A stretch of DNA of 44,685 nt from Rubripirellula sp. (GTDB taxonomy: Bacteria; Planctomycetota; Planctomycetia; Pirellulales; Pirellulaceae). Where the stretch lies: positions 1 through 44,685 of the forward strand of contig JADHOA010000003.1 of assembly GCA_016779185.1 (NCBI GenBank), in the 5' to 3' direction. The notes under the pieces were generated by a model. It saw only the letters and a list, made by a program, of their open reading frames with translations, had not been told where the DNA came from and did no database searches. Below are positions 20,682 through 27,928 of the stretch, in pieces (within the stretch, counting starts at the first letter, position 1; every line of letters begins with the position of its first letter). The translations under genes were made by a program, and so were the position numbers.

Positions 20682-20788
20682 TTTTTGTATCTCTGGAATC
20701 GTGACTACACTGTTAAAATGAAATTCAATCCGATACGAATTTTTGTGGAATAGGACCGGTGAAAAATAATCGAATTCAAGAATTTGAG

Positions 20789-21934
20789 ATGTGTCGGAAT
20801 ATTTCGTCACTGAGGCCAAAGTTGCTTTTGGTAATGATCGTCAGCCTAGTGTTTCTTAACACTGTCTTTGAGCTGACAAGAGTAACCGCTCAGGTTTCCA
20901 GCAATCTTATTTTAGATCATGTCGATGAACTTAGGTTTATCACGAAAGACTCGTCTCTGGCAGAGGATATTGGAGAATCAACGGATGATGGTACCCGCTG
21001 CGATGTTGATGATTCTTTGCTGCACCTTCTCAGTAAGGGTGGCATACCAAAAACGATCGATGAGCTTCGTGCGTTGGAGATTCAGCATCACAAGGTTGCC
21101 AAAGCCGCTGATAGCTGTACCGTCGGTGTCAAGATTGGAGCCGCTAAGGGATGTGGGGTAATCGTCACAAAGAGTGGCTATGTGTTGACTGCTGCCCATG
21201 TAGCGATGCGTCCTGGAATGAAAGCTGAACTGTTTTTGTCTGATGGACGAGTGGTGAATGCGATGGCTTTGGGTATGAATCGAAGTGTCGATGCGGGACT
21301 AATGAAAATTGACGAAGGTCAAAATAATGGAGAGCCTTGGCCTCATGCTGCTTTGGGCAGCAGCAAACCGCTTGTCCCAGGTATGTGGTGCATCGCTACG
21401 GGGCACCCAGGAGGGTTTAATGATCAAAGAGGTTCAGTAACGCGGGTTGGAAGAATTCTTGCAGTACGAAATTTAGCCATTGTTACTGACTGTGCGCTCA
21501 TTGGTGGTGACAGTGGTGGGCCGTTATTCAATTTGGCTGGGGAGTTAATCGCTGTGCACAGTCGAATCGGTAATGACGTTGCAGATAACTTGCATGTGCC
21601 AATTAATCACTATGCTGAATCGTGGGAGCGAATGCAACGCGGTGAGTCGTGGGGATATCTACCAGGTTTTAAGCCGGTGCTTGGTGTCCGTGGTAGCCCT
21701 TCATCTGAAAAAGCCGTGATCGAAGTCGTTCGAACCGGCTCACCGGCTGATAACGCGGGATTGAAAGAGGGAGATATCGTCGAAGAATTCGGTGATAAAC
21801 TCATCACTAATTTTCAGTCGCTTCAAGAAGCGGTGGCAGATACGATGCCAGGGGAGAGAGTTCGGTTGCTGATCAATCGCAATGGAAGAACTCGAGTGAT
21901 CGTCGTAGAAATTGGCCGTGCGGGTGAATCTTGA
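20789..21934 (+). CDS. Secreted trypsin-like (S1C/DegP-type) serine protease with C-terminal PDZ domain
   Basis: Triad context LTAAHVAM (His), SVDAGLMKID (Asp), IGGDSGGPLFN (Ser); PDZ VVRTGSPADNAGLKEGDIVEEFGDKLI. The ORF opens with GTG at 20759; the ATG at 20789 is a better signal-peptide start. Confidence 0.92.
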   Translation: MCRNISSLRPKLLLVMIVSLVFLNTVFELTRVTAQVSSNLILDHVDELRFITKDSSLAEDIGESTDDGTRCDVDDSLLHLLSKGGIPKTIDELRALEIQHHKVAKAADSCTVGVKIGAAKGCGVIVTKSGYVLTAAHVAMRPGMKAELFLSDGRVVNAMALGMNRSVDAGLMKIDEGQNNGEPWPHAALGSSKPLVPGMWCIATGHPGGFNDQRGSVTRVGRILAVRNLAIVTDCALIGGDSGGPLFNLAGELIAVHSRIGNDVADNLHVPINHYAESWERMQRGESWGYLPGFKPVLGVRGSPSSEKAVIEVVRTGSPADNAGLKEGDIVEEFGDKLITNFQSLQEAVADTMPGERVRLLINRNGRTRVIVVEIGRAGES

Positions 21935-21937
21935 GTC

Positions 21938-22984
21938 ATGATGAAAAGTTTGTTTATTCAACTGAATCAAAACGGTGAAGTCACAATGTTCCGAGCGAAG
22001 TTTGCGTTGAAAGTTTTAGTTTGTCTCGGTGTGGTGATGGTAGGTCAGTTACGAGCTGATGAACGCAGAGACCATCCTGAAGTTCTCGATTTATTTCGAC
22101 CGCTTGGTATACAGATTCAAGATTCAGTGGTGCAAGTATTATGTGGTGGTTCACCCGTCGCACTGGGAACAGTCGTGGCTGCAGACGGATATGTGATGAC
22201 GAAAAGAAGCGAACTAACCAGTGATCCGATAAGGGTGAGATTCTCTGACGGAAGGCTGTTTCCAGCACGCGTTGCAGCTGTTCAGCGAAGAAATGATTTA
22301 GCATTGATTCGCGTTGATGCTGATATCATTTTCAAGCCACTTACGTTTGATACCCACTCGCCAGAAATCGCTACGTTTCTTCTTTCGGTGGGACGAGCGG
22401 GAAGAACGATAGGTCTGGGTGTTGTTGGAGTAAGAGAGAGATCCATCAAGCATCAGGGAAGACTCGGAGTTCTGCTTGAAGATGATGCAAAGGGTAGAGC
22501 GATCGTCCAGTTGGTGATTCCAGAGAGTGGCGCCGCGATTGCAGGAATTAGTCCAGGGGATCGTATTGTCGCGATCAATGGGGAAGAAGAACGCAGCAGA
22601 GATGCTGTTATTAATCGCTTGAAAGGGATGTATCCTGGCGAAAGCGTTCGTTTGACAATCCTCAGGCCAAATGAGTTGAGTGATTTTGAATCTATCGATG
22701 TGAATGCACAAATTCGTGATATTGGTATGCTTCAAGAATCACCGAGCGATACCAAAGTCAATGGTCCTCGAAATATGCGGTTGAGCGGATTCGAGCGAGT
22801 CATCCAGCATGATACGGTTTTGAATCCAGAAGAATGCGGAGGTCCTGTTTTAGATTCGCAGGGTCGTGCAATTGGTATCAATATTGCCAGAGCGGGAAGA
22901 GTAGTTAGTTATCTTCTACCATCTTCCTTGATTCTTCCAGAGATGCTTCAAATGTTGGAGGAAGCCAGAGCAAACCTTGAGTGA
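21938..22984 (+). CDS. Degenerate DegP-like pseudoprotease with internal PDZ domain
   Basis: GTVVAADGYVMTKRSELTSDPIRVRFSDGRLFPARVAAVQRRNDLALIRVD, then PDZ (PESGAAIAGISPGDRIVAINGEE), then EECGGPVLDSQGRAIGINIARAGR. Starts 3 nt after the upstream stop; alternative signal-peptide start at 21986 (MFRAKFALKVLVCLG). Confidence 0.82.
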   Translation: MMKSLFIQLNQNGEVTMFRAKFALKVLVCLGVVMVGQLRADERRDHPEVLDLFRPLGIQIQDSVVQVLCGGSPVALGTVVAADGYVMTKRSELTSDPIRVRFSDGRLFPARVAAVQRRNDLALIRVDADIIFKPLTFDTHSPEIATFLLSVGRAGRTIGLGVVGVRERSIKHQGRLGVLLEDDAKGRAIVQLVIPESGAAIAGISPGDRIVAINGEEERSRDAVINRLKGMYPGESVRLTILRPNELSDFESIDVNAQIRDIGMLQESPSDTKVNGPRNMRLSGFERVIQHDTVLNPEECGGPVLDSQGRAIGINIARAGRVVSYLLPSSLILPEMLQMLEEARANLE

Positions 22985-26631: not shown

Positions 26632-26779
26632 CTAGATCTTTGGAGGACGATGACTAAAGTCGAGTTTCGGTTAAAGCAATGGGCGCTGCGACCCGGAAAT
26701 TTTTGAAAAGATTATTCGGTCAACTTTCGTGTAGAAGGTAGGTGCCTCCTAGACATCTGTGCTTCAAGGAGTGATCACG

Positions 26780-27928
26780 ATGGGGCGGTTTGCCGCATTT
26801 TTTTTGATGGTACTCAGCTTCGTGGTCGGGCAGTCTCGTTTGCTGGCGGGGGGGAATGATGCAGTTCTGCTTTTTTTCACATCCTCCACTTCTGCTCCAT
26901 CTCAAACGATGTTGCCCATCGTTTCTTCGTTAGAACGCGAAGGCGTACCCGTGAGACGTGTTGAGGTATCCCAAGAGCCATATTTAGTGGCACGATACGG
27001 AGTTCGTTCCACGCCAACATTTATTGTGTTGGTTGGTTCTCGTGAAGTGACCCGCTTAACGGGTGTACAGAGAGACGAGCAATTGAATCGAGCGCTGCAG
27101 ATCGCTGATCACCGCAGTCTTGTTACGACGGGGGCGAGAACCATCGACAAACCCATCTTAGTCAATCCAAAATTGCCAGTGTCTGAGCAACGTCATCATT
27201 TGCAACATCCACGGGATCTTTCTGGTCAAGATTTTTCTAAATGGATTCAACGTCAAACGATAAGGGAATCTGAACAACAAAGCGACTGGAGCGAATTGAT
27301 GCCTAGTCGCAACACCGCGATTGGGATTGAAAAAGCAAGGTCCGCAACGGTACGGCTAAGAGTTTATGATCCAACAGGTTATGGGATTGGTACTGGGACG
27401 ATTATTGATAGTCGAGAAAGTGAATCGCTGGTACTGACCTGTGGTCATCTTTTTCGAGATGCTGGTCTACATGCAAAGCTCGAGGTAGATGTTTTTCATC
27501 ATGGCGAGCATCACACTGTCCCTGGAAGATTAATAGATTTTGACTCGAATTCGCGAGACATCGCGCTCGTTGCGATCCGGCCGAGATTCCAAGTTGCGTC
27601 TGTGAAAATCAGAGACCAAAAGTTAGCTGTAAGAAGTGGTGATTCTGTGTTCACTTTTGGATGTAATCGGGGTGAAGAGCCGAGTCGTATCGATACTAGG
27701 ATTACAGGAGTAAATAAGTACAACCAGCATTTAGGTTTATCGAATCTCGAGGTTTTTGGCGCTCCGATTGATGGCCGAAGCGGAGGTGGGCTGTTTGATC
27801 AAAATGGATATTTGATCGGCGTTTGCAATGCAGCCGACTACCGAGACAATGTCGGCATTTACGCTGCGTTAGGTGTAATTCGCTGGCAGTTGGAGCGAAT
27901 TGGCATGACGTATTTGATTGGTTCTTGA
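26780..27928 (+). CDS. Secreted thioredoxin-fold (no CxxC) fused to trypsin-like serine protease
   Basis: Signal peptide MGRFAAFFLMVLSFVVGQSRLLAG; Trx-like AVLLFFTSSTSAPSQTMLPIVSSLEREGVPVRRVEVSQEPYLVARYGVRSTPTFIVLVGSREVTRLTGV; protease motifs LTCGHLF, SRDIALVAIR, GRSGGGLFDQNG. The ORF opens at 26759; ATG 26780 preferred. Confidence 0.87.
   Translation: MGRFAAFFLMVLSFVVGQSRLLAGGNDAVLLFFTSSTSAPSQTMLPIVSSLEREGVPVRRVEVSQEPYLVARYGVRSTPTFIVLVGSREVTRLTGVQRDEQLNRALQIADHRSLVTTGARTIDKPILVNPKLPVSEQRHHLQHPRDLSGQDFSKWIQRQTIRESEQQSDWSELMPSRNTAIGIEKARSATVRLRVYDPTGYGIGTGTIIDSRESESLVLTCGHLFRDAGLHAKLEVDVFHHGEHHTVPGRLIDFDSNSRDIALVAIRPRFQVASVKIRDQKLAVRSGDSVFTFGCNRGEEPSRIDTRITGVNKYNQHLGLSNLEVFGAPIDGRSGGGLFDQNGYLIGVCNAADYRDNVGIYAALGVIRWQLERIGMTYLIGS

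Follow-up and report, generated by a model that had tools for sequence, protein, structure and literature searches.

Comparative sequence analysis suggests that a non-cutting HtrA look-alike controls a working HtrA in many planctomycetes

Results

An HtrA gene is followed by a degenerate HtrA-type gene

The window, by which we mean the whole analysed stretch of 44,685 nucleotides from a Rubripirellula species, carries two consecutive genes on the forward strand: an HtrA-like gene, referred to below as the partner, and directly downstream a gene for a degenerate HtrA-type protein, referred to as the pseudoprotease. Their features are given in the following list, where residue numbers of the pseudoprotease (Ser91, Asp120, Cys300 and others) follow the numbering of the 348-residue open reading frame.

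20759..21934, +, partner gene, HtrA-like, Trypsin_2 followed by PDZ, triad intact (Pfam); the start codon is uncertain
21197-21199, 21290-21292 and 21512-21514, +, codons of the partner triad residues His, Asp and Ser, respectively (sequence)
21938..22984, +, pseudoprotease open reading frame, 348 aa, with the extent given in the initial annotation; the ATG at 21986 is the more probable start
21986..22057, +, putative signal peptide MFRAKFALKVLVCLGVVMVGQLRA, read off the sequence by eye
22115..22450, +, N-terminal half of the trypsin-like domain, whose end lies in sensor loop L3 (Pfam, phmmer, family profile)
22208..22210, +, codon of Ser91 at the catalytic His position, motif T-K-x-S (Ser in 128/130 members, Thr in 2/130, His in 0/130)
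22295..22297, +, codon of Asp120, the retained triad Asp (Asp in 129/130)
22439..22441, +, codon of Arg168, counterpart of the L3 arginine (HtrA2 R280; Arg in 109/130)
22457..22690, +, PDZ domain inside loop L3, carboxylate-binding loop G-x-L-G-V retained (Pfam PDZ_2, loop conservation)
22763..22963, +, C-terminal portion of the trypsin-like domain, containing the nucleophile loop (phmmer, family profile)
22808..22813, +, codons of His291-Asp292, family motif Q-H-D where HtrAs have Q-T-D (His in 121/130)
22835..22837, +, codon of Cys300 at the catalytic Ser position (Cys in 118/130, Met, Val, Ile, Thr or Phe in the rest, Ser in 0/130)

The true start of the pseudoprotease is probably the ATG at 21986 and not position 21938, because an SD-like GGTGA lies 5' of this codon, the signal peptide follows it and the nearest orthologues (L011 and L012) begin close by. 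The putative signal peptide makes it probable that the protein is exported to the periplasm or beyond. At a distance of 4 kb, the window also encodes a thioredoxin-like N-terminal domain without CxxC that is fused to Trypsin_2, with the His and GxSGG kept (26759-27928, +).

A PDZ domain lies inside the sensor loop of the protease fold

Pfam detects Trypsin_2 (E 3.9e-13) in two stretches of the pseudoprotease, the first spanning residues 77-156, and PDZ_2 at residues 174-251 (E 3.2e-12). A phmmer comparison with the HtrAs in the PDB gives the order N-terminal protease half (75-173), PDZ domain (174-251) and C-terminal protease half (276-342), whereas in the solved HtrAs both protease halves precede the PDZ domain. 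The family profile repeats the split order (29-130 / 140-235 / 242-296), matches PDB HtrAs down to E 9e-46 and aligns the ECGGPV segment with the nucleophile strand-loop of HtrA. An AF2 prediction on three sequences only, the pseudoprotease and two orthologues, had a mean pLDDT of 42, too low for a usable model. The split arrangement is not due to chance, because it is common to 130 distinct full-length co-linear homologues. HtrAs are composed of an N-terminal protease domain and zero to three C-terminal PDZ domains (PMC3640471); with the PDZ domain placed between two protease parts, the order found here departs from that of the HtrA family.

The PDZ domain starts six residues past Arg168, just behind the L3 arginine. 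In our alignment this family arginine falls opposite a residue that we take to be R280 of human HtrA2. The HtrA2 numbering agrees with a study that places S276 and R280 on loop L3 (PMC6172425). In HtrAs, L3 rearranges upon ligand binding and touches loop LD of the adjacent subunit, thereby ordering its active site (PMC6172425), and a PDZ-L3-LD network has likewise been described for plant Deg1 (PMC3640471). Some fused relatives carry two PDZ domains between the protease parts (L130 and L131) or four (L133), and their occurrence at the same place supports this as a true insertion site. The fusion with four (L133:2-3181, +) has these inside the pseudoprotease part and one further PDZ domain after the active domain.

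Conserved residues other than the triad occupy the former active site

The His-Asp-Ser triad of the S1C proteases is absent from the pseudoprotease. Ser91 occupies the catalytic His position (GYVMTKRSEL versus GYVLTNNHVV in HtrA) and Cys300, within NPEECGGPV, that of the nucleophile, while Asp120 of the triad is retained. In the 130 distinct full-length members, the His position is never occupied by His, nor the nucleophile position by Ser. The near-invariant family signature consists of T-K-x-S, D, H-D, C-G-G-P and N-I-A-R-x-x-R, with the Lys of T-K present in 127/130 members and the two Arg residues of the last motif in 123/130 and 121/130. In two members of one genus (L040 and L064), about 10 to 30 extra residues directly precede the T-K-R-S motif. 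Judged from these alignments, the fold is split at L3 by the PDZ domain, and a conserved set of other residues takes the place of the triad. The location of the insertion in L3, like the partner, the fusions and the occurrence across the class, goes beyond the initial annotation. A PDZ domain inside the protease domain and the altered active site had been proposed there and are now borne out, the inserted PDZ domain by Pfam, by phmmer against PDB HtrAs and by the family profile, the Ser and Cys substitutions and the retained Asp segment by their conservation; homologues with an intact triad, which it had named as evidence to the contrary, do not occur among the 130. Its view that the gene is not decaying also holds: random decay is ruled out by the conservation of these features across the class, and a sequencing or assembly artefact by the identical architecture in hundreds of genomes.

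The same alignment bears on whether the protein could be an active cysteine hydrolase, with Cys300 as nucleophile and His291 or Lys89 as a re-wired base in place of the lost His. Such an enzyme would fit the frequencies of the Cys (118/130), of the His291 counterpart (121/130) and of the Lys (127/130) as well as the G-G-P kept after the Cys; retained chemistry could explain why Cys and His are nearly invariant in most members, and this would count against a dead subunit; the majority with Cys may perform thiol chemistry. However, the His is missing from its usual place, and 12 of 130 members have Met, Val, Ile, Thr or Phe instead of Cys. On a FastTree tree these 12 represent at least ten separate changes, and 11 of them retain all three of Lys, Ser and Asp. 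Independent replacement on this scale argues against an obligatory or universal Cys nucleophile and favours a pseudoenzyme whose site has been rebuilt, and we consider a cysteine hydrolase unlikely.

The pseudoprotease is linked to one particular HtrA

In order of increasing breadth, the pseudoprotease finds a match in 146/149 Pirellulaceae genomes at E <= 1e-20 (single-protein query), in 115/199 genomes of the class at E <= 1e-30 (44-row profile) and in 41/246 genomes sampled across the phylum, including some that do not belong to the class, at the same threshold and with the same profile. Beyond the Planctomycetota, one contig scan was made with short exact peptide patterns, whose reach is limited to close relatives, and a scan of viral contigs returned no further homologues. 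Neither Pfam nor NCBIfam holds a model naming this pseudoprotease family.

An active HtrA gene lies directly upstream on the same strand in 81 of the 115 family members examined, and the cases without a partner are in part fusions or artefacts of open reading frame extension (L103, probably L106). All 78 aligned partners retain His, Asp and Ser. In 31/130 members the pseudoprotease is fused to an N-terminal trypsin domain, and on the tree the fused and separate states have interchanged at least ten times. The active part of four fusions (L067, L068, L099 and L100) has no Pfam-detected PDZ domain of its own, so that the one inside the pseudoprotease is the sole PDZ domain of the protein.

Searching the 199 genomes with two separate profiles, we found both proteins in 111, the pseudoprotease only in 4, the partner only in none and neither in 84; these counts depend on the score thresholds, the genomes are related and not independent, and many absences span whole families (f3, f8, f9, f12 and f15), so that far fewer than 199 independent events underlie them. 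One of the four pseudoprotease-only genomes (G177) contains both genes as broken pieces; at this locus (L147) stops or frameshifts interrupt the two genes, through either joint decay or sequencing errors. Where the genes of a pair are not neighbours (G038, G023 and G167), the partner is located elsewhere in the genome. One genus (g39; L024, L026, L029, L034 and L035) has lost the upstream neighbour of the pseudoprotease, and in the one genome of it that was checked (G038) the partner is on a different contig. Across 17 neighbourhoods, comprising the window, two near relatives and 14 distant regions of about 18 kb, the pair are the only common genes, and no larger conserved operon was found in this set. 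On the evidence of operon, fusion and co-occurrence in the sequences compared, the pseudoprotease is linked specifically to one active HtrA.

The partner (20759-21934, +) also contains the motif TDCALIGGDSGGP, in which a Cys located seven residues N-terminal to the catalytic Ser, near the expected S1 pocket, is conserved in 73/78 sequences. Loss of this Cys does not go along with loss of the pseudoprotease Cys. An obligatory inter-subunit disulfide through the partner Cys is unsupported, as five pairs without it keep the Cys of the pseudoprotease.

Discussion

Our analysis suggests that the dead look-alike found beside or fused to a working HtrA in many planctomycetes controls that enzyme and cuts nothing itself. 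We assign a probability of roughly 60% to the reading that the pseudoprotease is exported and, as an HtrA-type subunit without catalytic activity, works with the active HtrA whose gene lies immediately upstream. Three observations favour the non-proteolytic regulatory role put forward in the initial annotation, namely that the Cys has been replaced repeatedly, that an active HtrA partner is obligate and that natural fusions occur; we continue to infer this role.

As to how such control might be exerted, the pseudoprotease and the partner would form one complex, in which the embedded PDZ domain would bind a peptide or the terminus of a substrate. Because the PDZ domain is spliced into L3, binding would be expected to move this loop of the pseudoprotease. 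In DegP, the active site of a subunit becomes ordered when L3 of its neighbour touches its LD; here, the signal would by analogy pass in trans to LD of the catalytic partner and would switch it on, or possibly hold it off. That the planctomycetes possess a widespread two-subunit HtrA of this kind, in which a dead subunit with a PDZ sensor inside L3 switches a catalytic subunit in trans, is a proposal we advance tentatively and would not yet bet on.

A delivery or chaperone subunit, whose embedded PDZ domain or PDZ array would only capture substrates for the partner and exert no allosteric control, would account equally for the linkage by operon, fusion and co-occurrence, and the conserved carboxylate loop and the two or four PDZ domains of some relatives would suit it well; we nevertheless regard it as rather improbable, since it leaves unexplained both the position of the PDZ domain, in the sensor loop and not at the C-terminus, and the strong conservation of the former active site. 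Also unlikely is a metal or redox sensor, in which the former active site would coordinate a metal through its His, Asp and Cys or act as a reversible thiol switch controlling the partner: the His-Asp and Cys are conserved and the degenerate domain of MamO is used for metal binding (PMC4794232), but the Cys is dispensable in 12/130 members, a disulfide to the partner Cys is not required in the five pairs mentioned above, and the metal site of MamO is a surface di-histidine in a different place.

The closest precedent for a dead regulatory subunit is MamO, an HtrA-type protein that activates MamE without catalysis. Like the pseudoprotease, MamO has a degenerate triad in its HtrA-type domain and is encoded with an active HtrA whose proteolysis, in that system, needs it (PMC4794232). 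It differs in that no PDZ domain lies inside its protease fold, in its TauE transporter domain and metal-binding di-histidine, and in its separate origin in magnetotactic bacteria; Pfam finds no match to a TauE-like domain in the pseudoprotease. As direct contact between MamO and MamE was not detected and the TauE domain is needed (PMC4794232), the precedent backs the role and not the route from L3 to LD. The S1C HtrAs DegP, DegS, DegQ and HtrA1/2 match both protease halves and the PDZ domain by sequence, but theirs is a protease domain with His-Asp-Ser followed by a C-terminal PDZ domain, whereas here the PDZ domain is inside L3 and the triad is lost. In Arabidopsis, Deg5 and Deg8 are likewise two HtrAs of unequal PDZ content in one compartment, with activity of Deg5 undetected; unlike the pseudoprotease, Deg5 has no PDZ domain and keeps its catalytic residues, and neither protein contains a PDZ insertion (PMC3640471). 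A regulatory PDZ domain embedded inside a protease domain is found in Prc, CtpA and CtpB, which have the unrelated S41 fold and are catalytically active (PMC6686036). Pfam finds no S41 domain in the pseudoprotease, and the NCBIfam S41 matches span only its PDZ domain and little beyond. The protease fold of CspC and CspA from Clostridioides difficile is subtilisin-like, unlike that of HtrA. These proteins resemble the pseudoprotease as pseudoproteases acting as regulators and are, as described, spore-specific and without PDZ domains (PMC6636752, PMC12880746).

Neither pseudoprotease partners of HtrAs (MamO) nor proteases with an embedded PDZ domain (Prc, PMC6686036) are new in themselves. A survey of microbial PDZ domains describes planctomycetes as rich in PDZ proteins, and those of its passages that a term search retrieves do not describe the PDZ-split pseudoprotease architecture (PMC6411480). 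What appears to be new, no earlier description having been found in the literature searched, which covers few subscription journals, is an S1-type fold split by a PDZ domain in the sensor loop that is linked to, and repeatedly fused with, an active HtrA.

The family adds a widespread pseudoprotease, with natural fusions to its partner, to the proteins of the planctomycetes. If the two-subunit proposal is true, sensing and cutting, which DegP and DegS combine in one chain, would here be divided between two chains and at times re-fused. HtrA allostery has been studied on homotrimers, in which sensor and catalyst are inseparable; a natural pair consisting of a sensor-loop chain without catalysis and a catalytic chain would permit a direct test of signalling from PDZ to L3 to LD in trans.
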